Shown piece after piece: positions 3,408 to 19,666 of a DNA stretch of 63,427 nt. The position numbers were made by a program, and so were the translations under genes. How positions within the stretch are numbered: the stretch's first letter is position 1; every line of letters begins with the position of its first letter. The notes under the pieces are model-generated. The model had not been told where the DNA came from. It saw nothing but the letters and a program-made list of their open reading frames with translations, and made no database searches. Source of the stretch: an uncultured Clostridia bacterium (lineage in GTDB: Bacteria; Bacillota; Clostridia; Christensenellales; Borkfalkiaceae); the NCBI GenBank assembly GCA_947174415.1, contig CAMWIW010000008.1, positions 1-63,427 of the forward strand. Direction: 5' to 3'.

Positions 3408-6400
3408 CTATTTCGTTTTGAACTGTTCTGAAAGAATTAGCAAGTCTGCAGATTTAGATTTTACACTATTCTCAATATTATCTAGCACGTAATTAGCAAC
3501 CTCTGGTTGCCAATAAATTTTCAATTTGTTCTTTGCTCTGGTAACAGCCGTATAAAAAATATTTTTCGTTACAAGTTCATCGGTCTCTTTCGTTATAACA
3601 ACTTTAACAGAATCAAATTCTAGTCCTTGCGCTTTATGAATTGACATAGCGTATGATATCTGAAAAGGCAATTTTGTTCTTGTGTCCATATCTGAATCAT
3701 ACTTGTCAGTATAATACTTTAATTTTTCGACAATAGCGTAACATTTTGAATCTCCTTCTACAACTTCGACTTCCGATGATAACTTGCCTATATAACTCAT
3801 TTTATCAAACAATTCTATTTTAAAAGTGATAATTTCATCCTTGTCATTTATTTCAACAATTTTACCGTTCAAGTTGTTATATATTCCATATTGACTATAA
3901 TCATTCGTGATAAAAACAACCGGATCGCCGACTTTATACAAGTTCTGCTGATATTCATAAGCAACATTAAAATTGGATGCCTGTAAATATCGATTAATAT
4001 TATTTATTCCATATAAGCCATCATAATTCAAACAAAGTACAACCTCATTCTCTTTGACATTGAAGATTGCATCGTTAATCTCTTCAGTCATCTCATAGGC
4101 TGCAAGCAGTTCTAATATGCCTTTCTTTTTGCCCAACCTTACTACATTCCAAATATTAGCCATTTCTTCAACATTGGTTCTGTGCCCAATATCAAGAGTA
4201 AAAACAACATTTTTGTTTTTTAGCAAATTTAACAATAAGTCAAACCAGTTACCAAATTCGATAGATTCAATTTGCTCAGGATCTCCAACAAGCAAAAAAG
4301 CTGATCCGCTGTATATTCTTAAAATAGAGCTTATTGATTGTGTTGAAACAACGCTTGCTTCATCGACAATAATTATGTCGTAGCATTCATGACACTTTTC
4401 TTTTTCGAATTGGGATATGTTTTTGTATGCAACTTCACCAGCATAGTCTTTAATTTTCAAATTGTTGTTTGCAGTGTTTGTAGTTGTCAAACATAAAACT
4501 CTTTTAGAATAATTGTTTTTTATAAATTCCTTTATTATCGTAGTTTTTCCGGTACCTGCCGCACCAGTAATCAATGCAATAGAGGCATTCACAAAACAAT
4601 CAGTCAGTACATTTTTCTGTTTATCAGATAAAATGCCGTTATCAGAATAATCATTGTTTACCTCTATGTTCTTTATGTCGCACAAGTCTAATGCTTTAAA
4701 AATAACGTCTTGAGTCGAGTTGTAGTATGATTCAACCGTATAATATCCGTTCAGTTCAATTATTTTGTAATTCGAATAATATGAATTTACTCTTAAAAGT
4801 TTTTCATTAAATAGATTTTTCAAATCAATAAATGTCTTATCTGAATACCCTATATCTTGAGGTTTTACAAAAAGTGTATTATTCTGATTTATGTAGTTTA
4901 CTAAATAGTAATATAAGATATCCTCCGCCGAATCGGATGAATCATATAATTCCAATAATGTATGTAGCGATGGTCTTGCCTCTTTGGGAGAAAAAGCAAA
5001 AGGCATCAACTCAAAAGCTTTTGTAGCTAACCGAATTCTCAAACCGTCAAATTTTTCATTATACGGTGGCATACTTCCGTGCGGTTTATAAGTCTGAGCC
5101 TTTATAGTACTGTTTCTCATGTTTAACAATAAAAGCCTAATTATATTTGTACCAAGATTTTTTGCTTTTACAAACTTTTTGACAGTAATTAAAAACCTGC
5201 CATAGTATCCGTTGGATGATAGATTATCTAGTGTATCATTATCAATCAAATCAACCAATGACTTTTTACTGTCTTTAATGAATTTCATAAGAGATAAGTA
5301 TTCTTTATCCCTTTCACAACGCGATTTGTCAATGTTGATTAAATGTAGTAAATTTTGAAACGCACACGGTCTTATTGAATATTCGTAGTCATAAATGATA
5401 TTGATAATTATTTTTGTATTAAGGTAAGTAATCTCCTTCTTGGAAAGTAAAAGTTTAAGATCGTAATCAAATCTTATATTTTTAAAGCTATAACAGACAA
5501 ACGTATTAAATTTGTTAGCTTTATCGTCTGAAACATCAAATACATACTCATAAAAAATATGACCGTTTATGTATTTCATCGACCTTTTCCTGACAAAATA
5601 TTGATTGCGCGTAAATTTTGTATGCCCTGATTTTGAATTAAGTAATACATAAAGTATTTTCTCATAAAAAGAAACAATACTTTTATCTAAATCCAAAGGG
5701 TATCTATCTATATTTTCTAAAATGCTTATTCCGTACTCTTTAAGCAAAAAATCTTTTATTACCACAAGCGTAGATATATACTTTATGGTCAATGCTTCCG
5801 ACTGCATTGGGCCAAAATCCATATGACCAACGCTAGAGTCCAACAAAGCATGAAATTTCCATATGTCAAAATAGTTATTTTTAAAATAAATTCTTACTTT
5901 CTTTAAGTTATCTTGTGTTTGGTATAAATCTTCAAAGTTTTCTTCGTCATAGACTTTGTACATAAATGCTTCACAGAAATTCCTGATATGAGACAGTATA
6001 TCAGCAGATATCTCACAACGCGATTTGTCAATGTTGATTAAATGTAGTAAATTTTGAAACGCACACGGTCTTATTGAATATTCGTAGTCATAAATGATAT
6101 TGATAATTATTTTTGTATTAAGGTAAGTAATCTCCTTCTTGGAAAGTAAAAGTTTAAGATCGTAATCAAATCTTATATTTTTAAAGCTATAACAGACAAA
6201 CGTATTAAATTTGTTAGCTTTATCGTCTGAAACATCAAATACATACTCATAAAAAATATGACCGTTTATGTATTTCATCGACCTTTTCCTGACAAAATAT
6301 TGATTGCGCGTAAATTTTGTATGCCCTGATTTTGAATTAAGTAATACATAAAGTATTTTCTCATAAAAAGAAACAATACTTTTATCTAAATCCAAAGGGT

Positions 6401-6809
6401 ATCTATCTATATTTTCTAAAATGCTTATTCCGTACTCTTTAAGCAAAAAATCTTTTATTACCACAAGCGTAGATATATACTTTATGGTCAATGCTTCCGA
6501 CTGCATTGGGCCAAAATCCATATGACCAACGCTAGAGTCCAACAAAGCATGAAATTTCCATATGTCAAAATAGTTATTTTTAAAATAAATTCTTACTTTC
6601 TTTAAGTTATCTTGTGTTTGGTATAAATCTTCAAAGTTTTCTTCGTCATAGACTTTGTACATAAATGCTTCACAGAAATTCCTGATATGAGACAGTATAT
6701 CAGCAGATATCTCACTTCTGTTTTCCTCATTGACTTTAGCAAATTTACCATCAATAAGATCAGCAGTTTCTTTAAGTCTTTTATCTATAATTTTCATAAG
6801 TAAACCCAT
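3408..6809 (-). CDS. RecD-like SF1 helicase with a duplicated N-terminal region
   Basis: The C-terminal half is a superfamily 1B helicase. It has Walker A GAAGTGKTT (about residue 748), Walker B IIIVDEAS (about 810), a motif III-like VGDPEQIE, and the late motifs SYAMSIHKAQGLEFDSV (about 1050) and FYTAVTRAKNKL. The N-terminal 500 residues are not recognised. They consist of a 233-residue segment present twice with no visible change, so the ancestral protein would be about 900 residues. The frame stays open across the duplication. It lies 71 bp downstream of the ATPase gene on the same strand and probably shares its transcript. The protein starts MGLLMKII; the second Met may be the true start. 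A role in phage defence is inferred from context. Confidence 0.8.
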   Translation of the reverse strand: MGLLMKIIDKRLKETADLIDGKFAKVNEENRSEISADILSHIRNFCEAFMYKVYDEENFEDLYQTQDNLKKVRIYFKNNYFDIWKFHALLDSSVGHMDFGPMQSEALTIKYISTLVVIKDFLLKEYGISILENIDRYPLDLDKSIVSFYEKILYVLLNSKSGHTKFTRNQYFVRKRSMKYINGHIFYEYVFDVSDDKANKFNTFVCYSFKNIRFDYDLKLLLSKKEITYLNTKIIINIIYDYEYSIRPCAFQNLLHLINIDKSRCEISADILSHIRNFCEAFMYKVYDEENFEDLYQTQDNLKKVRIYFKNNYFDIWKFHALLDSSVGHMDFGPMQSEALTIKYISTLVVIKDFLLKEYGISILENIDRYPLDLDKSIVSFYEKILYVLLNSKSGHTKFTRNQYFVRKRSMKYINGHIFYEYVFDVSDDKANKFNTFVCYSFKNIRFDYDLKLLLSKKEITYLNTKIIINIIYDYEYSIRPCAFQNLLHLINIDKSRCERDKEYLSLMKFIKDSKKSLVDLIDNDTLDNLSSNGYYGRFLITVKKFVKAKNLGTNIIRLLLLNMRNSTIKAQTYKPHGSMPPYNEKFDGLRIRLATKAFELMPFAFSPKEARPSLHTLLELYDSSDSAEDILYYYLVNYINQNNTLFVKPQDIGYSDKTFIDLKNLFNEKLLRVNSYYSNYKIIELNGYYTVESYYNSTQDVIFKALDLCDIKNIEVNNDYSDNGILSDKQKNVLTDCFVNASIALITGAAGTGKTTIIKEFIKNNYSKRVLCLTTTNTANNNLKIKDYAGEVAYKNISQFEKEKCHECYDIIIVDEASVVSTQSISSILRIYSGSAFLLVGDPEQIESIEFGNWFDLLLNLLKNKNVVFTLDIGHRTNVEEMANIWNVVRLGKKKGILELLAAYEMTEEINDAIFNVKENEVVLCLNYDGLYGINNINRYLQASNFNVAYEYQQNLYKVGDPVVFITNDYSQYGIYNNLNGKIVEINDKDEIITFKIELFDKMSYIGKLSSEVEVVEGDSKCYAIVEKLKYYTDKYDSDMDTRTKLPFQISYAMSIHKAQGLEFDSVKVVITKETDELVTKNIFYTAVTRAKNKLKIYWQPEVANYVLDNIENSVKSKSADLLILSEQFKTK
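5314..6012. repeat. Tandem direct duplication inside the helicase gene, copy 1
   Basis: This 699-bp unit is followed immediately by an apparently identical copy at 6013-6711. The unit length is a multiple of three, so the reading frame is preserved. TCAC occurs at 5314, 6013 and 6712, a 4-bp microhomology at the junctions. Confidence 0.9.
6013..6711. repeat. Tandem direct duplication inside the helicase gene, copy 2
   Basis: This is the second copy of the 699-bp unit. All stretches I compared base by base match copy 1, and the two translated copies are identical, which implies a very recent event or strong homogenisation. Confidence 0.9.
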
Positions 6810-6880: not shown

Positions 6881-8242
6881 TTAATATAATTCCTCTCCGC
6901 TAATGCAATCATATTCAGAAGAAATTTCCTCAAAGCTGTTCACAGAAATAAATCCAATATTCCTAACATCAATTCCCTTAATATTTCTAATTTGCTCTTC
7001 TTCTGCTTGCATCTCTTTTAAAGACAGTGGCTTAGAATAGTACTTGACTTCATAAATATCGAAGTTATCTTTTCTTTGTATTACCACGTCAAACTCTCCG
7101 TTTGTCTTTGTGCCGCTGTCGTCATAGTAATAAGTTCCTATACGGAATATTCCGTTCCGCTTCCCCTCTTTTACTTCCAATGAGAAAAATGTTCTCGCTA
7201 TCTCTTCAAATCTGTGAGAGATAAAAGTTGTAATAGACGGTTCAATATAGTTATCATAAAACGCCTCTGCGCCTAACATCTGTAACGTGCTTTTATTCCT
7301 ATAAACATAGGTGTACCAAAACCGCAAAAGGTTGTCTGTCATTTCATAGGAAACCTTTTTGTTGTCATCTTCCTTATTAATCGGATAAACTTTTGAAACC
7401 ATATCCATATCAAGTAAAGTTTTTAACTGTTTACTCAAAAGTCCGTTATTTGTCAATCCTAACTTGCTTTCAATTTCGCCATACTTCTTCTTTCCATTTG
7501 CTATAACGTTTAAAATCCGCTCCGCATTAACACTTCCTGACAAATCGGAAACAAGAAGGTTTTCCGCATAGGAATAGACAGCGTTTAACGGATTCAACAC
7601 GGTTTTCAAAATATTTTGTTTTAAATCAGACTTGCTGTCAAGCTGCTCATTAACGAAAGGCGAACCGCCAAATACAGAATAAAATGCAATTTTATCATAG
7701 ACAGTTTTATCGCTGTAAAACACTGAAGCTTCCCTGTAATTAAGTTCTTTCAACTTGATATTCAGCGAAAATCTACCATACAAAGCATTCTTCTCTTCCA
7801 ACAAATCTTTCATCATGCCAACATGTGAACCTGATATAAATAACCTTATGTTCGTTATGTTGTTGTCAATGATTGTTTGGAAAACCGAATCAACCGTTTC
7901 CCCTTTGTTGAACTGCTTTAAATAAGGATACTCGTCGATAATAATATTTAAAGTTTTATCCAACGTATTCAGATATTGAAATACTTCCTGAAAAGATGAA
8001 AAACCTATTTGTACGGGCAACACCTTTGTCTTGACAAGTACAGAAACAAATCCGTTGATATTATCCTGCATTGAAGATTTAAGGCACTCATAATAAACAG
8101 TAGTGTCTTTACTACTTTTAAGTGCCTCTAAAATGAGAGTTGTCTTGCCTACTTTTCTCTTCCCATATACAAGCACACTTCCGCTTTTTTTATCAAGAAC
8201 GACTTGTATGGCTTTCAATTCTTCTTGTCTTCCTACAAACAT
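6881..8242 (-). CDS. AAA ATPase with C-terminal DUF234 nuclease-like domain
   Basis: The 453-residue protein begins MFVGRQEELKAI. It has Walker A YGKRKVGKTTL (about residues 26-37), Walker B NIIIDEYPYL (about 110) and a sensor-like LFISGSHVG. A winged-helix segment (about 240-300) is followed by a DUF234-type C terminus. That part includes GEFDVVIQRKDNFDIYEVKYYSK, whose D and ExK pattern suits a PD-(D/E)XK fold. This family is often mobile or linked to selfish or defence modules; the substrate is unknown. It has its own strong promoter with a palindromic operator and is followed by the RecD-like helicase gene. The start at 8242 follows a GAGGTG ribosome site. Confidence 0.85.
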   Translation of the reverse strand: MFVGRQEELKAIQVVLDKKSGSVLVYGKRKVGKTTLILEALKSSKDTTVYYECLKSSMQDNINGFVSVLVKTKVLPVQIGFSSFQEVFQYLNTLDKTLNIIIDEYPYLKQFNKGETVDSVFQTIIDNNITNIRLFISGSHVGMMKDLLEEKNALYGRFSLNIKLKELNYREASVFYSDKTVYDKIAFYSVFGGSPFVNEQLDSKSDLKQNILKTVLNPLNAVYSYAENLLVSDLSGSVNAERILNVIANGKKKYGEIESKLGLTNNGLLSKQLKTLLDMDMVSKVYPINKEDDNKKVSYEMTDNLLRFWYTYVYRNKSTLQMLGAEAFYDNYIEPSITTFISHRFEEIARTFFSLEVKEGKRNGIFRIGTYYYDDSGTKTNGEFDVVIQRKDNFDIYEVKYYSKPLSLKEMQAEEEQIRNIKGIDVRNIGFISVNSFEEISSEYDCISGEELY

Positions 8243-8416: not shown

Positions 8417-9457
8417 TTATGAATTTTTTCTATTTACTTTTTCTGATAACACACTCATTAAATAAGGGCGGATAGAGTTATAAATGATTGCACGTATTTT
8501 TTTATGCATATTATATGTAATATCTTCTTTTTTCCTTTTGCTAAACATTTTTAAGAAAAAGTTATAATCCTCCTCGCCATCATATCCGTTATAATCAGTA
8601 ATACTTATATGTTAAGCAAGCCTTAACGTCAAGTTTTTCGATACTTAGTACGTCAGCAAAAGCATTCAAAAGAGCATACATAACGGAAAGCATAGTTGCA
8701 TAATCCCACGTATCCGTTTCAAATTCGATTTTTGCAACATCAGTCTTAAATTCATGATGCAAGCTGTACTTATTCAAGTTTGTGTTTATGCAAAATCCTT
8801 TCCCGAATGGACTGGCATGTTTCGGGCCGTCTTTAATGGCTTCAACTTTGCTTTTATAATCAATATATTGAATTAATTTACCCGTTTCGTCTGCAACAAT
8901 TGTATATCCGCACTTTGAACATACGTAAAAATCTTCTGTAGATTTTACTACCAGCGAATCGTTTGCCGTAGATTGTACATTTATCTTGATATCCCCGAAG
9001 TCATACGAATATGTGCTTATTGTATCAGCATTTTTATCTCCGATATAAACGGCTTCTGTTCTGTACTTTAGCTCCTGTGCAGTTAAAGGCACAGCTTTCA
9101 CATCTTGCTCGGCTATAAAACCGGCACGAGGTTCGATATTTTTTTAAAATCCCTTGGGCGCAGAATTTCACCGCAAACTGAACAAGGCTGCCCGTCCAGG
9201 CTGATTAACATATTACTGTAATTTATATGCTCGCATTTAGGGCACCGTGCGATAAATGACACGTCGAAATCGGGCATTTCGCTTTTGTTTACAATAGGTT
9301 TTCTTATGTAACGACTTGTATATAAGTTACCATCGGCAACGACTTCTGCCGACGGAGCATACTCGGCAATAGAGACTGATAAATCTCTGCTCAAATTCAG
9401 CGCTTTAAATTCTTTAGAAGAAATATTCTGTGCCAGTTCAACCGAATCTACGGGGAA
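8417..9457 (-). pseudogene. Decayed DUF1998 / DrmB-like protein gene
   Basis: Three leftward frames join into one protein text. Frame one (9457-9113) reads NLSRDLSVSIAEYAPSAEVV followed by a zinc-ribbon pair CPKC and CSVC. Restoring one A in a short A run near 9131-9137 continues it into NIEPRAGFIAEQDVKAV and the 168-codon frame ending at 8595. That frame carries CSKCGY and TDVAKIEFETDTWDYATMLS. A further one-base shift at 8597 leads to 60 more codons ending at 8417. The SEYAPG-like phrase, zinc ribbon and TDV...YALL pattern match DUF1998 regions of DrmB (DISARM) and related helicase tails. There is no N-terminal part and no helicase motif. It is the last gene of the pPIWI-RE operon and appears inactivated. 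Confidence 0.6.
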
Positions 9458-9505
9458 TTAAATCAAATTTTCCTTGTTATCTTATTGCTTTTGTAAATGA
9501 AAAAG

Positions 9506-10051
9506 TTATATATACCTTTCAATGGGATATCCAAGTAGCGACATTATTTTAAGCTCATCAAGACTATCTTTAAGAGCATTGTGCGTCTCTTGATATGTAA
9601 TATCTCCGGTAAGCATTCTTAAAATTGCTTGAACACCATATCCTGATTTAAGTCGCCCAGTTGAACACATTGGCATTCCACGCGGTATCTTATGATTATA
9701 TTGGATATACGCCGCTAATTTCATTATATCAAACCAACGCATACCCGCAAGTTCCGGCAGATGATTTCTATCGAATACTGCGTTATATGCAAACACTTTA
9801 TTAACGCAGTTATTTTTACACCAATCAATCAGATTATTAAGCGCTTCTGAACGAGAACAAATTATAGGATTTTTAAAATCGCAAGTTAGAAGGACATCTG
9901 AGTACATTCCCCCTGTACGATATTCAGGGTCTAATATGTAATACTTTGATTCAAGTGGCAACATAGTATCACTATTCGCTATAACTGCCCCAATAGACAT
10001 AACCTCATCTGCCCACGTTGTTTCAGTATCTATTACAACAAACTTCTCCAT
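9506..10051 (-). CDS. DEDDh 3'-5' exonuclease (DnaQ-like)
   Basis: The 181-residue protein is a compact DnaQ-fold exonuclease. Exo I is VVIDTETTWADE (D and E at residues 8 and 10), Exo II is NAVFDRNHL, and Exo III is THNALKDSLDEL, where the H-x4-D spacing gives the DEDDh class. No other domain is present. It overlaps the upstream helicase-nuclease gene by 19 bp and so is translated with it. As part of this operon it probably trims single strands or RNA/DNA ends made by the helicases or the PIWI-like protein. That role is inferred. The start lies inside the upstream gene and follows ACAAGC rather than a strong ribosome site, so coupling is likely. Confidence 0.85.
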   Translation of the reverse strand: MEKFVVIDTETTWADEVMSIGAVIANSDTMLPLESKYYILDPEYRTGGMYSDVLLTCDFKNPIICSRSEALNNLIDWCKNNCVNKVFAYNAVFDRNHLPELAGMRWFDIMKLAAYIQYNHKIPRGMPMCSTGRLKSGYGVQAILRMLTGDITYQETHNALKDSLDELKIMSLLGYPIERYI

Positions 10052-11865
10052 TGCTTGTCCTCTGTCGTATAAAATTTATCTATTGCCCTCTTAGTAACTG
10101 TCTTCGCAACAGCATCAAGAAAGGCAGCCCTGTTTGGAATTTTTATCTCAAACTTAGCATTATTTCTTGTATTCCATAAAATACCTTTTGACAAACCTAA
10201 CGCAACAACGTAGCTTGCACATTGCAAAAAATGCACGTGAGAAAGCTCTGATACAAATTTTAATTCATATACTGTATCACCCCTAACCGCATCCGCAAGG
10301 CCTTTGGCAAGAAAAGCTTTTTTACCGCTTCCATAGGCAAAAGTAATTTTACATTCTGACTGCACATCTTCATCGGGTTGTAATGTTGTGTTTAACCTTT
10401 TAATTAGTGCCTTCTTTTCTTTCTTTTGAACGAACGGCGTTGAAACCTGTTGCATATACCTTAGTTGCCTAGTTTCTAATCTCGTTAATAAAAGTATCTT
10501 TCTGTCAAGTGAATCGGCATCTTTTTTTGAATATAATCCCTTTTCTTGTGGATGTAAGGTAAAATAAAACTCAAGACTCTTATCTATATCATATCCGTTG
10601 AAAAATACTGCTTCCTGATATATCCCTATACAGGGAGAAAGGTCAATCAACTCATCCCTGTTTTTAATTTTTATATCTTCTGAATTATTGCTTTCAATCT
10701 CTTTTATATCCAATAATGAGTAGCATTCTTCTATATCCTCAACATATTTAAAATCGAACATAGTAGAAATATCCATATCCTGAAATATTACATTTTCTTC
10801 TGGTTTAGACTTCAATGTATTTTCAGAAAGTTTTTCTTCACCATTTGAAACGAAAATTATTTTCTCTTTTCCCCTGCTAGCTGCAACGCAGAAAATGTTA
10901 CGCAGTATTTCAAATGACTGCTGAGGCTTATCTATGCGCACAGCCCAATAGCTTTCTGTAAAATCAAATACAATACATATATTCCGTTCCAGTCCTTTAC
11001 TGCTGTCATAAGTAGTAAAAATTGCGCATGAACTATCAGGCTCTACAGCCCTATTACCATCATCGTCTTGTATACTTGAATATAAGGTTCTCTTATTGAA
11101 AATATCAGGATAATTATCTTCAAGTTCGTTTTGAACGTCTGACATATCTCCGGTTCTTGAGCCTAGGCATAATATATCTTTTGGATTTTTGTCAGCAAGA
11201 AATGCAATTACCTCTGCAGTATTCATGTTCATTATTTCGCAATTCTCATTTACACCAATGATTGGTTTATCCCAGATACGCCCAAGCAATTCCGCATGAT
11301 TTGCAGAGAGCCTAAAACATTTTGTAAACGTAAGCTTTTCGTAATCGCATAAAAACTTATCTATAAATTCAGGAACGTTGAGTACAGTTTTATCATATAT
11401 TTTCTGTTTCATGTCCCCAACGGCGACTATCTGCATATTAGGATTAGCCGATTTTATATATTCAAGCATTTCGGCAAATTCCTGCTCAATATCTTGATAT
11501 TCGTCCAAAATGAGGATATCAAAATGAGGTATAGGCGGTTTTACTTGTAGAAATTTTTGAACCAAATCATGAATACCCGCACTTATATTTTGTTTCTTAA
11601 GCATTGAAAACGCAAAGCCGTGGTAATTAGTTACGGTAACGAATCGCCTTTTTATCTTCTTACGCGCATCAAGTTTTAAAAGCTTGTTATAAGTAAGATA
11701 TAAAATTTTACAATTTAATGGAAGCTCTTCGCACAAGTGCTGTATAGCAGTTGTTTTACCGCTGCCTATACAGGCATCGACAAGTATATTTTTGCCTTGC
11801 TTAGCAACTTCAATAAATTTAATTTGTTCATCGGATAAGTTAATTTTAAAATTAGATATGCTCAT
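10033..11865 (-). CDS. UvrD/Rep-like helicase fused to a RecB/Cas4-like nuclease domain
   Basis: Residues 1-370 form a superfamily 1A helicase. It has Walker A ACIGSGKTTA (about 33), Walker B ILDEYQDIEQE (about 120), motif III VGDMKQKIYD, and later TTYDSSKGLERN and VAASRGKEKIIFV. The C-terminal 200 residues resemble a RecB/Cas4-type PD-(D/E)XK nuclease: GLADAVRGDTVYELKFVSE gives the D and ExK residues and HFLQCASYV the QxxxY motif. Helicase plus nuclease in one chain suggests unwinding with end processing. The gene starts 9 bp after the pPIWI-RE gene and overlaps the exonuclease gene. The DEYQD box and the nuclease residues look intact. A defence role follows from context. Confidence 0.82.
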   Translation of the reverse strand: MSISNFKINLSDEQIKFIEVAKQGKNILVDACIGSGKTTAIQHLCEELPLNCKILYLTYNKLLKLDARKKIKRRFVTVTNYHGFAFSMLKKQNISAGIHDLVQKFLQVKPPIPHFDILILDEYQDIEQEFAEMLEYIKSANPNMQIVAVGDMKQKIYDKTVLNVPEFIDKFLCDYEKLTFTKCFRLSANHAELLGRIWDKPIIGVNENCEIMNMNTAEVIAFLADKNPKDILCLGSRTGDMSDVQNELEDNYPDIFNKRTLYSSIQDDDGNRAVEPDSSCAIFTTYDSSKGLERNICIVFDFTESYWAVRIDKPQQSFEILRNIFCVAASRGKEKIIFVSNGEEKLSENTLKSKPEENVIFQDMDISTMFDFKYVEDIEECYSLLDIKEIESNNSEDIKIKNRDELIDLSPCIGIYQEAVFFNGYDIDKSLEFYFTLHPQEKGLYSKKDADSLDRKILLLTRLETRQLRYMQQVSTPFVQKKEKKALIKRLNTTLQPDEDVQSECKITFAYGSGKKAFLAKGLADAVRGDTVYELKFVSELSHVHFLQCASYVVALGLSKGILWNTRNNAKFEIKIPNRAAFLDAVAKTVTKRAIDKFYTTEDKQWRSLL

Positions 11866-11874
11866 ACCCTTAAT

Positions 11875-14382
11875 TTACGAAAAATCGATATATTGCTCAA
11901 TCAAATTTAAATAATGCAAAGGCAAAGGTAAGTTTGTGACAGAATTGTATTGAGGAGAAAGATGCCTTAATTGATTCAGGAAATTTATCACTTCAAACGA
12001 ATCATCATTTTCGCATAAACTTAAAGGAAAATATTCTAATAACCTTCTCCCTTTATATGGTTTATTAGAATTAGAATAGCTATATTCTTTATTACCGTCA
12101 ACGTACGCCCTATCATTCTTTTTTTCAGTAACACTTGCGTAATAAACTTCCTTATATTTAAAAATTCCGTCAGCAAACCCGGTTGTATTATATCCATCGG
12201 TAAAGTAATAATTAGGGATCTCATCATTGTCTCTAATTCTTACAACTCGAAGTTTAGAATTATTTAAGTTAAATGAAACGGAACAAAGCTTATTGCCTAT
12301 ATCAATATTGTGGGGTCTATACTCGCCCATATAAGAGTACGTACTTATTTTTTTATTAGAAATTCCCGGCCACAACTCACCTCTAACAAACCCATCACCA
12401 GAGACAATTACAATTGCATCTTGATAGCGGTAATAATTTTCCAAGCCTTTAATTTTCTGCTCTATATATCTTTTTGATGCTTCAAAGCACAGCTTATCGC
12501 AATACCTATTCATTGATAGTTTACAAAATTCTATACAAGCTTGATAATAACTCGTTGGCAATCCATTATTCACCACAGGGCTTTCAACAGTAATTAGTCT
12601 ATCGCTTATATCATACTTTAACAGCATCGGTACAGCACGTATATTTGTACCTGACATAGTTTTAATATTTGAATGTGCGCCAATAGCTAAAATGGGATAT
12701 CTTAAAAATTTATCAAGCTTAGTAGCGCATTTTGTATATCCGAATTGGCGGAGCAAATCATATATTGCAACCGATATTTTATGCTGCAACCCATTAACTT
12801 CTTTAGTGTCGTTTTCATCTATCGGATTAATAAACTGAGTAACGCGATTAGTCAATGCAAATCCACAACGCAACAGATTTTTTGCATCCTTAACGTTTTT
12901 ATAGTCTTGATTTTTTGGCAGAATTATAATACTACCGACCATTAAATTTCTTGAAGCCTGCCCTATACTTTCACTGATTTGCCTAATTCTCTCCGTTCTT
13001 TTAGATACATTATTGTAATCTTGAATTAAAATGGGATCGGCAAAATTTTTTAACGGGAGTTTTTGTATATCAATTCTAAAATCTTCAGTATCCGTATTGA
13101 TTACAACCTTTAACCCATCTTCTATTTTTTTCGCCAGTTCATTATCATTGCTTAACGAATAAATTTCTATTCTTGCCCCACCAAAACCTGTATTGGATAA
13201 ACATTCGCAAATATCAATCCCATTTGGAGCCCACGTATCTTTATCTTCTTTTAATGGTACGGGATTTAATCTTGCGGCTCTTGCTTTTACTTTATTTAAC
13301 GTATCGCTCTTTGATACGAATTCTTTAATCAAGTCATAAATTGCAGTATAAAACGTAACTTTATCAAGGGCACTTATTCCGGTACCGATTTTAGATTCAC
13401 CGGAAAAGCTATTTTCGGTAGAACACGTACAATAAATCTGTGGATCACTTTTTGTTGCATCATTGTAAAACTCTATTCTGTTCATAACGTCATCTGCTTT
13501 CGGTAAACTATTCGGGTATGCAAAGTTGTAACAGTTTTCATCGGCGTCTTTCCATGTTACCTGATTATAGTTAGATAACATAGTAATCTTATAATAAATA
13601 TGCTCGCTATTATGTTTAACGTAAACGCTCATGTTATTTCTTAAATACTTTTTTGAGCGCGCCGACGTGTTTTTAAATATTCTTCTGCTACAGTTTAGAA
13701 GCAACATCGACGAAGTAGTATTCTGTCCCGGAATTGTTTGTAGCCCGAAAGAAAAAACGTAGGCATACATATCACCTTTATATCCTTTAATAACTTGCGA
13801 CATTAACTCATTGCGTCCGGAATAATTCAATACCAATTCTGTATTGTCGTAAACAATAGATTTACCAATCATACTCTCCATCAGTTTAAGGCAAAAGCCG
13901 TTGTAAGCATATTGGCTTACTATTATTCCGTTTTCGTCAATAATCTTCACATTTTCGGTATTAATATAATTTAACAACTCTTGCGAATTTATTAAGTTGA
14001 TAAATTTAGTTAATGCCTCCTGCACTCCATCGTTCTTTAAATACTTAACATAAAATGATTGCGCAGCCGCTTGCAAATTGATGCAAATATCCTGGCATAC
14101 ATTAGCGTCTATTTCCTTTAAGCAAACAATCCACTTTGAATCATCACTTCCCTTACGCATACTGTTAATTTCAATTAACCCATGCACCCAATTGGCACAA
14201 ATTTGGCTAAGTGCGCTACATAAAGGTAAATTATACTTATCATAGTCATATTTGGGGTTCGCAGTAATTGCCAGTTCAGCCAGGCATTCCTTCCATAAAG
14301 GAGGGAATCCAACAGTATAAGTTTTAATCGTTAAAGCTTTCGGGATAAAAGCCATCATCTGAAGTTGTTTCTGTTGACTCAT
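11875..14382 (-). CDS. pPIWI-RE protein (prokaryotic PIWI-like, RNase H fold)
   Basis: The 835-residue protein matches the pPIWI-RE family, whose N-terminal X (DUF3962-like) region precedes a PIWI/RNase H-fold module. In the C-terminal third I see VSGDGFVRGELWPGI, in the place of the family D-x-x-x-R...WP strand. Next come LRVVRIRDNDEIPNYY and VYYASVTEKKND. The last 30 residues contain RHLSPQYNSVTNLPLPLHYL, the strongly conserved arginine-bearing family tail, with a glutamate close behind. The family is proposed to bind nucleic-acid duplexes or R-loops guided by RNA. The gene sits between the DinG-type helicase (59 bp overlap) and the UvrD-like gene, as in the described three-gene island. AAAGGAG lies 12 bases before the ATG at 14382. 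Confidence 0.85.
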   Translation of the reverse strand: MSQQKQLQMMAFIPKALTIKTYTVGFPPLWKECLAELAITANPKYDYDKYNLPLCSALSQICANWVHGLIEINSMRKGSDDSKWIVCLKEIDANVCQDICINLQAAAQSFYVKYLKNDGVQEALTKFINLINSQELLNYINTENVKIIDENGIIVSQYAYNGFCLKLMESMIGKSIVYDNTELVLNYSGRNELMSQVIKGYKGDMYAYVFSFGLQTIPGQNTTSSMLLLNCSRRIFKNTSARSKKYLRNNMSVYVKHNSEHIYYKITMLSNYNQVTWKDADENCYNFAYPNSLPKADDVMNRIEFYNDATKSDPQIYCTCSTENSFSGESKIGTGISALDKVTFYTAIYDLIKEFVSKSDTLNKVKARAARLNPVPLKEDKDTWAPNGIDICECLSNTGFGGARIEIYSLSNDNELAKKIEDGLKVVINTDTEDFRIDIQKLPLKNFADPILIQDYNNVSKRTERIRQISESIGQASRNLMVGSIIILPKNQDYKNVKDAKNLLRCGFALTNRVTQFINPIDENDTKEVNGLQHKISVAIYDLLRQFGYTKCATKLDKFLRYPILAIGAHSNIKTMSGTNIRAVPMLLKYDISDRLITVESPVVNNGLPTSYYQACIEFCKLSMNRYCDKLCFEASKRYIEQKIKGLENYYRYQDAIVIVSGDGFVRGELWPGISNKKISTYSYMGEYRPHNIDIGNKLCSVSFNLNNSKLRVVRIRDNDEIPNYYFTDGYNTTGFADGIFKYKEVYYASVTEKKNDRAYVDGNKEYSYSNSNKPYKGRRLLEYFPLSLCENDDSFEVINFLNQLRHLSPQYNSVTNLPLPLHYLNLIEQYIDFS

Positions 14383-17300
14383 AATTTACATTCTCCTTTA
14401 ATGCGTTATAAAATGATTCATATAATGCTTTCGCTATATATCCATCCGTTTTTATCAAATAATCTATATAATCACATATTTCTTTTAATATTTCAAAAGA
14501 CCCGTCTCCTCTTCCGCCGTTAAATGCGCCGTCAGCAAAATATATTCTTGGCGGTTCGCCAATTTTTGATATATCGCTAACTCTGGCAGCCCTACCATAA
14601 ATTTGGTCTAACATAATAAATACCGTTGCAACTACATCTCTCTTGCTTTCATCCGATAAAAATCTAAGCCCCACCGCACTATCTTTCTGCATCATATCCC
14701 AAAATTTTCCTGCTTCCGTTTTTACTTTATCAGAAAACACGCCCAAATCATCAACGATTGCATTGCAAAAGCGCATTGAAATATAGCCGTTTAATTTGCT
14801 GACTTTCAATGATATGTCATCAGGCACAGACATAGGTCTTACTAAAAAGAAAATACTTCTTATTGCTGAATTTGCGTTCTTGTCTAATATGTTATATCCC
14901 CTACATATAACAGCTGCCGGAGCAACAAGAATCTTCTCTTCCGCATTGTCAAAATAAATAAGGTCATTTTTCCTTAACATACAATTTCCCGAACGGGTTT
15001 CGTCATCACGGATTAATACGGCGCATTTATGAGCACTCTTTATATCATTAAGTAGCCTTTTGGTATGAATCCATGTTTCATGCGCTTCGTCGTAACTGTT
15101 GACAATAAACAAAATCTTCCCGGGTTTATTTAACTCTGCTTCTATATCTGGACGTATTTCATAAAGTAATTTTGAAATCCGCTCCGCTCTCCCTTCTTTA
15201 TTTCCGCCAGAAATAACTGTAGTTGCACCACATGTGCGTATTATTGACTTGCTTAAATAATCAGTTGTTTCTTCTGAAGATTCAAGTATATAATTCACCG
15301 GAGCATTTATATGGTATTGTAACGAACCGGGAGCATAACTTGAGCCTGAAAGCAAAATAGTATGTGGTCCCAAAGGGGTACCCTCCTCATTAACTTTTAA
15401 CCACGGCAAAGAAAGCATCAGATATCTACCGCAGGCATATTGCCTGTATATTTTAAGTTTCTCATCAGATTTGGAATACATCATACCGAAAATATTACCC
15501 ATTGGTGCCGACGGTAAGAATTTTTGTTGAGTTATAAATCTTGCTTGCAAAAAATCTGATATATTGTTATTTCGAAGTACTTCTCTGTCAACCGATTTCG
15601 CGGCATCATCTATTCTGTAAACAAATCTATCAAAGAAAATAACCTTTAGAAGTAATTGTATATGACGGTAATCTTTTTTGTCTATATGGATTTTATGATT
15701 CGAAAATAATCTATCAAGCCTTGCGTATACATGACTGTCTTCTCTACAAGAACCATCAATAATCTCAGATAATTGATTTGTCAAATCATTATTATACAAT
15801 ATATCTTCATTTTGCACATTAACGCATTGTCTCAACGCATCTTCTAATTTCTGGTCAATTTTATCAGAATGCATTTTTTCAATTAACGTAAGCGCAGAAA
15901 ATGTTGAAGTAACTAAATTTTTCCAAGCACCTTTTTCTGTCTTTATTAGCTCATCTATATCATAAGATATTGCATCATATACAGATATCGCATCACGAGT
16001 AAGATTAAAGAATCTTCTTTCGTTTCTATCTCTGTCTACCGCCGAATGATTCTTTTTCATATCAACTGCGCTGGCATCTGCTTGTGAATTTATGAAATCA
16101 TTAAATGCTGTATTCGGCGCAAAAAAATCATCTAACGTATTTTGCACCCTGTCACATTCATCAAACATTACCACGTCAAAATTATCTATTACCTCTTCTA
16201 AAAAAAGATGATGGTTTTTACCTATAAATGAAGCCGCTAACCCAGCCACAGTAGTAATTACTATTGAAGATTTTTCAGCCTCCCGAAGCATTGCTGCCCC
16301 TGGACACATTTCAAAAAAGGGACACCTGTATTTTCCGAAATGTTTTTGTTCAGTATCGCATGAATGCAGATTATAACAGGGTCTTTCACTAAATTCCCAA
16401 GCTGTTTTATTTTCGTTATTTAATCCGTTTAAAATACAAGGCGCCGATAAATATCTTGCAATATCTTCTTCAAGATATTTTTCGCCTTTTTTTAATAATG
16501 AATATGAGTATTTCTCTTGATTTGATTTGCCAATCAATGGAGAAACAGATATTGATAATTCCTTAAAATATTTGTAGTATTCAATAACTTCATTTATTGA
16601 ATTCAAAACAATTACTGACCTATATCCGTTTTCAGCAAGATAATAGCTTATGACCTTTAATAACGTACTTTTGCCTGAACCTACCATTCCTACAATGTTA
16701 ACCAAATCTTCTATGTTCAAAATATTACTTCTATTTTTTACGTTTACTAATTTGTTTTTAGTTAAAACATTATAACAATAGTCGTCTGCTTTTATATTTT
16801 TCATTTTTAAAGCAGTGTTTAATAAATCTTCATATTTTATTTCAATTTTCTTTCTCTGCTTTACAAGGCTCTTTTCTTCTACAACACCATCTATTCTATA
16901 ATTAAAGTTATCAGGAATATCAATAGTAACAGCCTGTTTATCTTCTCGATAAAATTTATATCTGCCGGCATTTGCCATTGGCATATTTTTTTGTGTTTTT
17001 TCGCTTGAATTAATATAGTCCCAATAATACTGCTCTCTATCCGAAATAGGAATAACTTTATCTGTTTTTACTAAAATATTATTCTCAACGTTATAAAGTC
17101 TAATATTCTCATACCGCTTGTCCATATATAAGCAAAAATCTTTCTCCCACTGCATTTTTGATGCATATACAAGAAATTTCATTCTTGCTTGCTGTAACCA
17201 AAAAAGCTGTTCACTTTTTAAGCTATGGTTTATTAGTTGATACCCTCTTAAAAGAACATATGCTTTTGATGGGTTTAACTTCGGTGATACTTTTAACAAG

Positions 17301-17404
17301 ATGCACAAAACGTTTTCAATTTTTAAAAAAGCAGAAAGACTTAATTCGCTAAAATCGTCGAAATAGCCTTTTAGGGCTTTTTTGAGTAATTCCATATTAG
17401 CCAT
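14324..17404 (-). CDS. DinG/XPD-type helicase of the pPIWI-RE island
   Basis: This 1026-residue superfamily 2 helicase has Walker A GMVGSGKSTLLKVI (about 238). A cysteine cluster (about 335-375; CYNLHSCD and CPFFEMCPGA) is suited to an Fe-S cluster as in DinG/XPD. The DEAH-type box is MFDECDRVQ (about 412) and motif VI is LDQIYGRAARVSD (about 930). The first 200 residues are not recognised and may be partner-binding. It overlaps the upstream nuclease gene by 8 bp and the pPIWI-RE gene by 59 bp, indicating tight co-expression. In pPIWI-RE islands the DinG-type helicase is proposed to unwind duplexes at the invading replicon. The helicase motifs appear intact. Confidence 0.88.
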   Translation of the reverse strand: MANMELLKKALKGYFDDFSELSLSAFLKIENVLCILLKVSPKLNPSKAYVLLRGYQLINHSLKSEQLFWLQQARMKFLVYASKMQWEKDFCLYMDKRYENIRLYNVENNILVKTDKVIPISDREQYYWDYINSSEKTQKNMPMANAGRYKFYREDKQAVTIDIPDNFNYRIDGVVEEKSLVKQRKKIEIKYEDLLNTALKMKNIKADDYCYNVLTKNKLVNVKNRSNILNIEDLVNIVGMVGSGKSTLLKVISYYLAENGYRSVIVLNSINEVIEYYKYFKELSISVSPLIGKSNQEKYSYSLLKKGEKYLEEDIARYLSAPCILNGLNNENKTAWEFSERPCYNLHSCDTEQKHFGKYRCPFFEMCPGAAMLREAEKSSIVITTVAGLAASFIGKNHHLFLEEVIDNFDVVMFDECDRVQNTLDDFFAPNTAFNDFINSQADASAVDMKKNHSAVDRDRNERRFFNLTRDAISVYDAISYDIDELIKTEKGAWKNLVTSTFSALTLIEKMHSDKIDQKLEDALRQCVNVQNEDILYNNDLTNQLSEIIDGSCREDSHVYARLDRLFSNHKIHIDKKDYRHIQLLLKVIFFDRFVYRIDDAAKSVDREVLRNNNISDFLQARFITQQKFLPSAPMGNIFGMMYSKSDEKLKIYRQYACGRYLMLSLPWLKVNEEGTPLGPHTILLSGSSYAPGSLQYHINAPVNYILESSEETTDYLSKSIIRTCGATTVISGGNKEGRAERISKLLYEIRPDIEAELNKPGKILFIVNSYDEAHETWIHTKRLLNDIKSAHKCAVLIRDDETRSGNCMLRKNDLIYFDNAEEKILVAPAAVICRGYNILDKNANSAIRSIFFLVRPMSVPDDISLKVSKLNGYISMRFCNAIVDDLGVFSDKVKTEAGKFWDMMQKDSAVGLRFLSDESKRDVVATVFIMLDQIYGRAARVSDISKIGEPPRIYFADGAFNGGRGDGSFEILKEICDYIDYLIKTDGYIAKALYESFYNALKENVNYESTETTSDDGFYPESFND

Positions 17405-18515
17405 TTTTCAACTCCGCCTTTATCATCTTCTTTAGCATACTCATAGAAATGCAACTAAAATTGCTATTCTTGATTACACTATTACAAATTTTAAGATATG
17501 CAGTATTTTTCTTTGTGATATTATCTGAAATAACGTAAAACCCTTTATCTATATTTGCGTTATAAAATTTGTTGTCGTTTTTTATCTTCCCACTCAGAGT
17601 ATAAGGGTTTACAATAGTTTTAGCATCGACACCCCAACTTACACCATTTGGAAACACAATCTTTATGTCATAGCGGTCATGTTCAGGCCATAATTCGTTA
17701 TTTAAATTAAATTGCTTACAAAAATCGCGTATCTCAAGTTCCAACTTACCGGGATAGCTTATGTATCTTGCAACACCGTGCTTGAGCCTCAATGCGAATT
17801 CTTCACCTACAACATCTAAATCCGTTCTATTTAATTTCAATCCATCTACACAATCAAAATGACAACATTTGGGTTGAATGCCCTTAAACGATAAAGTCCA
17901 TCCACAATTGGGGCACTTATACAGTTCTTCTGGCATATCTTCATACGCCTTATTGAGAATGTCCTGAATAGCTGAATCTGTATTGTATTTTATTAAAAAA
18001 CTATTTCGCTTTCTAATAGTCAGCAAAGGATTCTCAATTAAAAATTGGCGAACAGCCACATATTTTTCTTGCGGCAACTCTTTCATTAAATTATATACTA
18101 TGTGTTCATCAATTGCTGATAAATCCTTTTCCGTCACTTCAAGATAATCCAAGCACTCATCTGAAAGTTCGTAACTTCGTTCATCTTGATTTAAATAAAT
18201 TAATTGCCCCATTTCCCAAAACGGTTCTTTTTGTAATTTTTCCAATGCAATATTATTCCATTCTTTGAACCATGTTTTTACAGGTAAAGTAAACATATTG
18301 CAAATCATTTCTGTTTCATTTGAAGTAGTTAAATAATTCTTTAAATCCTCACCTTCTTTCGCAACATATTGTAAAGCTAAAGCACAAAACATGTTTATCC
18401 CTTGACGAAGCAATAATCCTGTTCGATACTGCTCGGGATCATCGCTTGAAAGTTTTTCTTTAAGCCCGAAAGCAATATGTGCAAACATTTTTTCAAATAT
18501 AGCATCTTGTTCCAT
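17397..18515 (-). CDS. Zinc-ribbon REase-fold nuclease of the pPIWI-RE island
   Basis: The 372-residue protein is the first gene of the operon. A zinc ribbon occupies about residues 205-230 (CPNCGW...CCHFDC). The C-terminal part has a restriction-endonuclease-like pattern: RYDIKIVFPNGVSWGVDAKT, with the acidic residues and Lys of a PD-(D/E)XK site near residues 288-307, followed by a strand reading FYVISDN. The N-terminal helical domain would correspond to the family-specific island domain. Order and content match the nuclease component of pPIWI-RE three-gene islands. AAGGAG sits seven bases before the ATG at 18515 and directly touches the T tract of a terminator in the leader. The nuclease assignment rests on motif spacing, not on a database match. 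Confidence 0.75.
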   Translation of the reverse strand: MEQDAIFEKMFAHIAFGLKEKLSSDDPEQYRTGLLLRQGINMFCALALQYVAKEGEDLKNYLTTSNETEMICNMFTLPVKTWFKEWNNIALEKLQKEPFWEMGQLIYLNQDERSYELSDECLDYLEVTEKDLSAIDEHIVYNLMKELPQEKYVAVRQFLIENPLLTIRKRNSFLIKYNTDSAIQDILNKAYEDMPEELYKCPNCGWTLSFKGIQPKCCHFDCVDGLKLNRTDLDVVGEEFALRLKHGVARYISYPGKLELEIRDFCKQFNLNNELWPEHDRYDIKIVFPNGVSWGVDAKTIVNPYTLSGKIKNDNKFYNANIDKGFYVISDNITKKNTAYLKICNSVIKNSNFSCISMSMLKKMIKAELKNG

Positions 18516-18528
18516 CTATTTTCTCCTT

Positions 18529-18566
18529 AAAAAAAATCCGTCCTTCAAAACACTGAAGGACGGATT
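18529..18566 (-). terminator. Leader terminator abutting the operon ribosome site
   Basis: Leftward, AATCCGTCCTTC pairs perfectly with GAAGGACGGATT (12 bp). An uninterrupted T tract follows and runs straight into AAGGAG, the ribosome site of the first gene. Everything downstream therefore needs readthrough or antitermination, unless another promoter exists. Confidence 0.85.
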
Positions 18567-18687
18567 ATTGTTTATCTTTGATAATTCAAAGTACTAATCG
18601 CATCTAAAGTAAGTTGCCGTGGCTCATTCACTTGAATGGCTGTCTACAAGATTACTTATACTACATATGGTGTTTTGTCTAAGACAA
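18529..18687 (-). ncRNA. Leader RNA / candidate small RNA upstream of the pPIWI-RE operon
   Basis: A transcript starting about seven bases past the -10 box would run about 155 nt. It contains small dyads (TTGTC/GACAA at 18675-18687, CATTCA/TGAATG at 18625-18638, CTTTGA/TCAAAG at 18576-18591) and ends in the terminator at 18529-18566. A seven-codon reading frame, MSHGNLL, is present in the middle. It may be an attenuator leader or a stand-alone small RNA. Confidence 0.45.
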
Positions 18688-18691
18688 TTGC

Positions 18692-18720
18692 ATACTAACA
18701 TATAAACACTTCCTTGTCAA
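18692..18720 (-). promoter_or_regulatory. Promoter of the pPIWI-RE leader/operon
   Basis: Leftward, TTGACA (18715-18720) and TAGTAT (18692-18697) are separated by 17 bp. The -35 is perfect and the -10 matches 4 of 6. A small dyad at 18675-18687 lies at the expected start site. Confidence 0.7.
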
Positions 18721-19102
18721 GCCTTTTCTAAAAATAAAATCTTAGGATGTGTATAAAATTTGCAAAAACTGAATTGTAATCGGAATGCCGCCAATAATGG
18801 CATATCAAAAAAAACAGGTCCTTGAAATTCAATCCCCTGTTTTTTTCGTAAAGACTACACATATAAACAAAAAGTATATTTAATTTTCTTGCGTTCGGCT
18901 TAAATCCTTTTAGTTGCACGTCATCATCCGAATTTGAACTTTTTATGTATCAAGAGCAGTTCGGTACCCAGAAGTATTATATATTCTTGCATATCGCCTA
19001 AAAATAATATTCTCCAACCTTATCTACCTACCGAGGAGGAACTGCAAAAAGAAATAAACGCTGAAAAAAAGGCTCTTGACAGTTGAAAAAAGGAGAACCC
19101 CA
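18721..19102. other. Intergenic debris upstream of the NYN ORF
   Basis: No intact gene is seen. The end of a rightward reading frame at about 19020-19087 reads LPTEEELQKEINAEKKALDS and stops at TGA. It resembles the C-terminal tail of DUF1016/YhcG-like nucleases and is probably a gene relic. A bidirectional terminator is listed separately. Confidence 0.4.
18808..18846. terminator. Bidirectional terminator-like hairpin
   Basis: AAAAAAACAGG (about 18808-18818) pairs with CCTGTTTTTTT (18836-18846) around a 17-base loop. Runs of A and T flank it, so it could work on either strand. Confidence 0.55.
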
Positions 19103-19666
19103 ATGGAAATCAAAGACAGAACGATTGCTTTGCTTATTGATTCAGACAATGTATCTGCAAAATATTTTTCGATTATTTTGGACGAACTAAGCCAGTATGG
19201 GAAAGTTACATATCGCAGATTATACGGCGATTTTACAAACCCGAAAGCTAACGGGTGGAAACAAGCATTATTAGATTACTCAATAGAGCAAATACAACAA
19301 GTTGCCTTTACTACAGGTAAAAACGCCACCGATTCTAAAATGATTATAGATGCGATGGATATTTTGTATAAGGGCAATGTTGATTGTTTTTGCCTTGCCA
19401 CAAGCGATAGCGACTTCACTAATTTAGCTATGCGGTTTAGAAACGATAATCTCGTAGTAATAGGCGCAGGAGAACAAAAAACGCCGTCTTCATTTATCAT
19501 CCACCATATGTTAAAGAATAGGCGTTACTTAGGTGAATACCGCTTCCGCGATATCGTCCACCCCAACGCTTTTCCTGCAATTATATTGGAAGAACTGTTT
19601 GAGCGCGTTCAACAGAAAATAAAAAAGCGCCGGCACGACACAAAGCCGAAGATGATTACATATTGA
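19103..19666 (+). CDS. NYN-domain protein fused in frame to a serine-recombinase segment
   Basis: Residues 1-131 are a NYN (LabA/DUF88-like, PIN-fold) domain: IALLIDSDNVSAKY, KNATDSKMIIDAMDIL and LATSDSDFTNLAMRFR supply the conserved acidic residues of this putative RNase fold. From about residue 132 the text changes to NRRYLGEYRFRDI and FPAIILEELFERVQQKIKK. That is the middle of a large serine recombinase, just before its zinc ribbon. The NYN gene has thus lost its own C terminus by fusion at about 19,496-19,505. The frame then ends because of a shift relative to the recombinase. AAGGAG 8 bases before the ATG at 19103 makes this start better than the upstream TTG. Function after fusion is doubtful. 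Confidence 0.7.
   Translation: MEIKDRTIALLIDSDNVSAKYFSIILDELSQYGKVTYRRLYGDFTNPKANGWKQALLDYSIEQIQQVAFTTGKNATDSKMIIDAMDILYKGNVDCFCLATSDSDFTNLAMRFRNDNLVVIGAGEQKTPSSFIIHHMLKNRRYLGEYRFRDIVHPNAFPAIILEELFERVQQKIKKRRHDTKPKMITY

Follow-up and report, generated by a model that had tools for sequence, protein, structure and literature searches.

The analyzed stretch of DNA (the window, 63,427 nucleotides) is contig CAMWIW010000008.1, positions 1-63,427 of the forward strand, from assembly GCA_947174415.1 of an uncultured Clostridia bacterium (Borkfalkiaceae), and carries a five-gene minus-strand operon whose predicted promoter is at 18720-18692 and whose last gene, for a DEDDh exonuclease, stops at 9506. 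Genes 1-3 are a pPIWI-RE triad in the order restriction endonuclease (REase), DinG and pPIWI-RE; genes 4 and 5 encode a helicase-nuclease and a DEDDh exonuclease, hereafter the pair. The pair is a modular add-on that is enriched beside pPIWI-RE and not exclusive to it, since it was found in 4 of 16 pPIWI-RE loci, occurs six times elsewhere, and a Streptomyces triad carries another add-on. We moderately favor, at about an even chance, a reading in which the pair is a portable DNA-end-processing module appended to the pPIWI-RE restriction operon and functionally linked to the triad. An unexpected result lies upstream of the operon genes, where the leader is predicted to act as an attenuator. The features are as follows:

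18692..18720, minus strand: predicted operon promoter, TTGACA-17-TAGTAT (promoter scan, 10 of 12 matches)
18670..18686, minus strand: putative antiterminator strand, predicted 5' end of the transcript (from duplex energies and shuffles, with the start inferred)
18535..18566, minus strand: predicted intrinsic-terminator hairpin and T-run, adjoining the ribosome-binding site AAGGAG (~18523-18528) of the REase gene
17397..18515, minus strand: gene 1, zinc-ribbon/REase-fold protein PprRE (PF18154, PprRE; dN/dS 0.105 versus locus L032)
14324..17404, minus strand: gene 2, DinG-type helicase with Z domain, PprDinG (PprDinG, PF18155; dN/dS 0.081)
11875..14382, minus strand: gene 3, pPIWI-RE, 835 residues, X-MID-RNase H (PF13111, PF18157, PF13032, PprPIWI; dN/dS 0.101)
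10033..11865, minus strand: gene 4, UvrD-type superfamily 1 (SF1) helicase with C-terminal PD-(D/E)XK nuclease (PF00580, motifs; dN/dS 0.094)
9506..10051, minus strand: gene 5, DEDDh exonuclease (PADLOC DEDDh, 2.7e-9; D-E-D-H-D residues)
8417..9457, minus strand: remnant outside the operon, broken in frame and similar to the C-terminal part of Druantia DruE

A preliminary description of this DNA had proposed a leftward operon of overlapping genes. Open reading frame (ORF) coordinates and family searches agree on the strand and positions of the genes it named, and three of the junctions overlap (REase/DinG by 8 bp, DinG/PIWI by 59 bp and UvrD/DEDDh by 19 bp), whereas the PIWI and UvrD genes are separated by a 9-bp gap. 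Its zinc-ribbon REase-fold gene, DinG-type helicase gene and pPIWI-RE gene were all recovered by profile searches. The REase protein matches PF18154 (74.2 bits) and PADLOC PprRE (73.2 bits); its Y domain is sub-threshold (15.4 bits, cut-off 26.7), with Cys pairs visible by eye. The DinG protein matches PprDinG over residues 30-1004 (368.5 bits) and the PF18155 Z domain (57.3 bits), and its Cys cluster is visible by eye only. The pPIWI-RE protein matches PF13032 (65.9 bits), PF13111 (X domain, 58.1 bits) and PF18157 (MID domain, 56.5 bits), all above their cut-offs, as well as PprPIWI over residues 4-833 (206.4 bits). Its residues R712, R715, R717 and E721, candidates for the conserved Arg and Glu from which the family takes its name, are invariant in alignments of 5 and 6 proteins.

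The first catalytic strand of pPIWI-RE reads AIGAHS in the window and AIDVVS in L031, another five-gene locus. This strand, D663 and a C-terminal His are, by our own alignment, presumably part of the PIWI tetrad. The first Asp is replaced by Gly in the window, L032, L030 and L074 and retained in L031 and L033, and the window protein retains the second Asp (D663) and the His. Because the first catalytic Asp is Gly, the window pPIWI-RE is predicted not to cut. The presence of the pair does not track this loss, as L031 and L033 retain the Asp yet have the pair. Catalytic RNase H residues are present in only a subset of pPIWI-RE proteins and are hence not defining. The pPIWI-RE structure model was unusable (pLDDT 40.3), and sequence comparison with solved structures gave no significant match for the proteins of genes 3-5 (P0003, P0004 and P0005).

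The other two enzymes named in the preliminary description, a UvrD-like helicase that carries a nuclease, and a DEDDh exonuclease, were likewise supported. The gene 4 helicase matches PF00580 above the cut-off (37.3 bits), and its C-terminal nuclease matches PF13366 (PDDEXK_3) slightly below it (20.4 bits, cut-off 22). Further matches are PADLOC GajB (47.5 bits) and NCBIfam AddA (36.6 bits). A structure model (pLDDT 59.6), used as weak support only, gave weak fold matches to GajB, Rep and UvrD (TM-scores ~0.2-0.5). Gene 5 matches PADLOC DEDDh (35.8 bits, 2.7e-9), the PHROG DNA polymerase exonuclease subunit (27.6 bits) and, weakly, ExoX; its Pfam matches are all below cut-off. Active-site motifs of both proteins are retained in aligned homologues; for gene 4 these are the SF1 helicase and PD-(D/E)XK motifs. 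The DEDDh residues (DxE, D and HxxxxD) are present in the window and in the aligned full-length copies, and the copies in L063 (stand-alone) and L032 (linked) are truncated. Thus SF1 motifs, a PD-(D/E)XK motif and a coupled DEDDh gene, the features by which a pair was recognized, are all found here. In genome G709 (L066) helicase-nuclease and DEDDh are fused in a single frame of 833 residues, which argues that the two act together.

The census of such loci is based on genome searches and plasmids, not on a whole-database survey, and the genome-contig scan reached five loci only. The five-gene order occurs in four loci: the window, L031 (G025), L032/L068 (G644) and L033. Of these, L033 is a 12-kb contig starting inside DinG, with the REase end off the contig, and in L032 the contig stops within the DEDDh gene. 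L033 is provisionally binned as Candidatus Scatousia, and 1.7 kb downstream is 83.5% identical to L031. PIWI, helicase-nuclease and DEDDh genes of the linked loci are separated by gaps or overlaps of at most 19 bp, except for 24 bp before DEDDh in L031, and this tight coupling holds at pPIWI-RE identities down to 50%. In all four loci the pair is located immediately 3' of the triad, and the four are spread over two pPIWI-RE lineages.

Among 398 family genomes, PF13032 is found in 7, the DEDDh gene in 19 and both in 3. The DEDDh gene is thus present in 3/7 pPIWI-RE carriers versus 16/391 other genomes (Fisher p 0.0029; p 0.026 without the window's own genome), so that co-occurrence with pPIWI-RE, on which the preliminary description had let its claim depend, is above chance for this gene. 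Gene 4, sought in 200 relatives, gave 12 matches at E<=0.001, 5 of them strong. A helicase-nuclease adjoins DEDDh in 8 of the 19 DEDDh genomes, 3 of which have pPIWI-RE; the other 11 lack it beside DEDDh in the stretch examined, which in at least two cases lies near a contig end, and in G050 the two genes are on different contigs. The proposal of an extended pPIWI-RE version therefore holds insofar as the five-gene order recurs in four loci, and has to be revised insofar as the pair is an independent module, outside the pPIWI-RE core, that 12 of 16 loci do without.

The distribution of the pair also supplies the first of several points that weigh against a functional link. The 12 pair-less pPIWI-RE loci are those of G060 (L030), G023 (L034), G871 (L074, DinG split over two frames), G750 (L073, partial, showing only the 3' part of PIWI onward) and G290 (L010), and seven plasmid loci (6 cyanobacterial, 1 Streptomyces); G354/L011 was excluded from the 16 loci (PF13032 at 7.3e-4, under the cut-off, and no REase or DinG match). 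The pPIWI-RE of pair-less G060 is 71% identical to that of the window; among the three other five-gene loci, two have a more distant pPIWI-RE. At the DNA level, L030 resembles the window from position 18739 to position 11870, which is 5 bp past the PIWI stop codon. Shortly after PIWI in G060, at L030:12650-12898, a piece was read by eye as an IS200/IS605-type transposase end, a possible scar of loss. Conversely, six pairs lie away from pPIWI-RE (L026, L027, L065, L067, L066 and L035). The genomes that carry the first five lack PF13032, and the sixth, on a viral contig, was read over 13 kb. The L026 pair follows an unrelated gene by 10 bp and has an EcoRI-type methylase and an HNH restriction gene in its vicinity. 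Some DEDDh genes have no gene 4 partner, and an RmrA gene precedes one of these.

These stand-alone copies are what makes it a distinct, if tentative, possibility that two separate defence units share one transcript, with a stand-alone pair landing at operon 3' ends and having no functional link to pPIWI-RE. The restriction-modification genes near L026, the SIR2-type prokaryotic Argonaute (pAgo) and caspase-like gene with L035, and a helicase-nuclease tree that mixes linked and stand-alone copies (without strong support) all fit separate units. The enrichment of DEDDh in pPIWI-RE carriers and the immediate 3' position in all four linked loci, across two pPIWI-RE lineages, speak for the functional link instead. 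The viral contig of L035 carries, at L035:2726-12350, the SIR2-type pAgo (PADLOC Aga_SIR2, 1495.6 bits), the caspase-like gene and the helicase-nuclease/DEDDh pair; this was the one pair found on viral contigs, which gave no hit to the search patterns used for pPIWI-RE and for DEDDh relatives. Full-length helicase-nuclease relatives of 35-38% identity lie on Gordonia/Rhodococcus plasmids (L024:11773-13884 and L025:11911-13872), with no DEDDh match nearby. These are the two full-length plasmid matches of the gene 4 protein (P0004); the plasmid search gave no match for the proteins of gene 3 (P0003) or gene 5 (P0005), and phage records gave none for P0004.

The evolutionary history adds further points on the same side. 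In pPIWI-RE trees, the window and L032 stand beside the pair-less L030, and L031 groups with L033; a tree that unites all five-gene pPIWI-REs in one clade is rejected (p 1.6e-39), and at least two state changes are required. The linked helicase-nucleases form no supported clade, nor is one rejected (p 0.33; the final tree omits L028 and two plasmid copies). The pair was either gained a single time and then lost on two or more occasions, or gained repeatedly. The L031 DEDDh shares 91-92% identity with its counterparts in two genomes that lack pPIWI-RE, and parts therefore appear to be exchanged freely. Between the window and L032, dS falls along the operon (0.80, 0.65, 0.54, 0.40 and 0.04) while DNA identity climbs from ~0.83 to 0.97, which hints that gene 5 may have been exchanged recently at the DEDDh end. 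In favor of the link, genes 1-4 are under purifying selection (dN/dS 0.105, 0.081, 0.101 and 0.094). Gene 5 gives a dN/dS of 0.655 over 81 DEDDh codons and no selection signal, a value that is uninformative because dS is only 0.04. Lastly, the literature examined yielded no experiment showing such a triad restricting phage. A parallel case on the supporting side is the Streptomyces plasmid triad (L099:9606-11359), which is followed by a 227-residue protein without significant family match and an Mrr-type nuclease, with overlaps of 4 bp and 1 bp. As this different nuclease pair occupies the same position, the 3' end of pPIWI-RE triads seems to be a place where accessory nucleases are recruited.

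For the functional link of pair and triad that we favor, we hypothesize the following sequence of events. The triad would recognize a nucleic-acid hybrid on invading DNA, formed by an RNA guide or as an R-loop, which DinG and the REase would open and cut; recognition, opening and cutting by the triad follow the model of Burroughs, Iyer and Aravind (2013, PMC3702460). The window pPIWI-RE, with Gly in place of the first catalytic Asp, would act as binder rather than cutter. From the cut, the helicase-nuclease would unwind the DNA and the DEDDh exonuclease would degrade the strand thus released, turning a nick or break into loss of the invader. Such a second step of unwinding and degradation, as proposed in the preliminary description, is plausible on the basis of the encoded domains.

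Alternatively, the pair could trim DNA ends to short single strands, with which pPIWI-RE would then be loaded as guides. Passages of PMC10269773 report that RecBCD shapes the small-DNA pool of SeAgo, LrAgo and CbAgo, and one pair lies on the same contig as a SIR2-type pAgo; the same source states that guides can be made and loaded without RecBCD, and most triads are without a pair, which together make guide production unlikely.

Expression of the operon would normally be off. In the window, a 14-pair terminator hairpin with T-run (18566-18535) directly precedes the ribosome-binding site of gene 1; it is the top site of the terminator scan, and the leader fold has a z-score of -4.5. Five loci share a 13-14-pair terminator just before the ribosome site of the first gene. 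A pattern of the leader core was found in 5/231 family genomes, once each, all of them pPIWI-RE carriers (G000, G025, G060, G644 and G871); the reversed control pattern gave zero among the matches listed. Two more carriers are among the 231 genomes: in G023 the hairpin is a different one, and in G750 the contig breaks off within PIWI. Among 311 control ORFs (>=100 residues, 20 loci), 6 have such a hairpin within 60 nt upstream, all of them pPIWI-RE REase genes and 5 of them distinct (L009 and L075 are the same place). This automatic count missed G023 (L007), where the ORF start was called upstream of the hairpin, which was found by eye and then checked. Since three-gene and five-gene loci both have the hairpin, the leader belongs to the triad.

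In 5/5 loci, the loop and 3' arm of the terminator can pair with the predicted transcript 5' end (-13.9 to -16.5 kcal/mol); of 1000 mononucleotide shuffles for each locus, 4, 1, 2, 4 and 0 were as good. The leader is thus made up of two mutually exclusive predicted RNA structures, which are conserved. The terminator itself is at -21.5 to -23.8 kcal/mol, so the default state should be off, and pairing of the leader 5' end with the loop and 3' arm would switch the operon on. In G023, whose pPIWI-RE is only ~27% identical, a terminator of other sequence lies in the same place, and the 5' end pairs with its left arm and loop (-11.2 kcal/mol, 1/1000 shuffles); pairing with loop and right arm is not notable (-4.3 kcal/mol, 174/1000 shuffles). 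Because two different sequences share the same logic, a 5'-end antiterminator before the pPIWI-RE operon is likely. Against an attenuator, the five related sequences give little covariation and the transcription start is inferred; stem conservation is also strong enough for another possible constraint, such as a protein site. The promoter scan overall found no more promoter-like sites than in shuffles, and TTGACAA stands at the same place in the 5 aligned leaders. No such leader was seen by eye in G290 (L010), and no Rfam family reaches its gathering score at the leader. A more speculative and highly improbable idea is that the leader 5' end is a resident guide held by the pPIWI-RE MID domain, keeping the terminator closed, and that competing invader RNA or hybrids would free the leader, open the terminator and switch on both triad and pair.

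Downstream of the operon, the preliminary description had counted a decayed DUF1998 gene as a further member. The first remnant piece starts ~49 bp after the DEDDh stop codon. The two longest pieces, in different frames within 8595-9457, best match parts of PADLOC DruE profiles (1.6e-10 and 3.1e-4) and gave no Pfam match to DUF1998 at E<=1 (the short piece at 8417-8611 was not searched). The claim was accordingly dropped: being broken and matching another system, the remnant is not counted in the operon, and the other loci were not searched for it. A complete Druantia system is not apparent either, as the nine proteins scanned gave no other Dru match and DruE itself is partial and frame-broken. 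Just beyond the remnant, an ATPase_2/DUF234 protein (6881-8242) matches the PADLOC candidate PDC-S27 (136.6 bits), and at 3408-6809 a helicase gene matches the candidate PDC-S53 (843 bits) and contains an apparently exact internal duplication of ~233 residues, either a recent duplication or an assembly artefact. Upstream of the operon, on the other strand, an ORF at 19076-19666 has an NYN domain (106 bits) and a short tail match to a serine recombinase (Recombinase, 30 bits).

These surroundings bear on whether the operon could serve replication or repair rather than defence. All of its parts are DNA-processing enzymes and, according to PMC10991935, deletion of the PIWI-RE gene in P. stutzeri raised ciprofloxacin sensitivity. 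A replication or repair role sits poorly with the patchy distribution (7/398 family genomes), with neighbors that match PDC-S27, PDC-S53 and a DruE remnant, with other triads residing on plasmids, and with the low-GC island holding the operon (GC 0.29-0.36 in 2-kb windows over ~2-23 kb versus 0.43-0.52 beyond); we consider it very improbable.

A long RNase III paralogue with a dsRNA-binding domain lies near three of the four five-gene loci (L032:2914-4588, L031:15437-16746 and L033:10462-11571), beside a Thg1-like gene in L032 and with a weak Thg1-like match in L031. It has strong matches (E<1e-40) in 8/121 relatives, with some RNase III match in 111/121. It was rejected as a partner: positions and orientations differ among loci, and tblastn found no copy in the window. 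The window genome has a single weak RNase III match elsewhere, probably the housekeeping gene.

pPIWI-RE is among the least understood Argonaute-like families, and dedicated prediction and biochemistry work was found among the matches listed. The locus offers two handles on it: a portable helicase-nuclease/exonuclease module, which joined pPIWI-RE operons at least once and is cleanly deletable, and a conserved predicted leader attenuator, which predicts how the operon switches on. Openly licensed literature did not contain system, operon or gene names of the extended form, a weak negative, and among the matches listed there no paper joined attenuation with antiphage defence. As the preliminary description had stated, pPIWI-RE is known as a three-gene island with REase and DinG-type helicase, and the main text of PMC3702460 describes the same families in the same strict order, with overlapping genes, as in genes 1-3. 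Relative to that island, the window operon has two extra 3' genes and the predicted leader attenuator; the main text mentions neither DEDD nor DUF1998 nor Cas4, and UvrD only in its reference list (additional files were outside the search). The gene 4 helicase domain resembles Gabija GajB and UvrD/Rep/AddA, as judged from the bit scores and weak folds given above, but is far below the AddA cut-off (707.65 bits) and is followed, in the same protein, by a C-terminal PD-(D/E)XK nuclease; among the nine proteins scanned, none matched GajA. Gene 5 is similar to ExoX/DnaQ-type DEDDh exonucleases and differs from them by its coupling, and in one case fusion, to the helicase-nuclease. The leader resembles transcription attenuators, such as Bacillus leaders, in having an intrinsic terminator ahead of the first gene and an upstream strand that competes with it, but here the competing strand would be the very 5' end of the predicted transcript.

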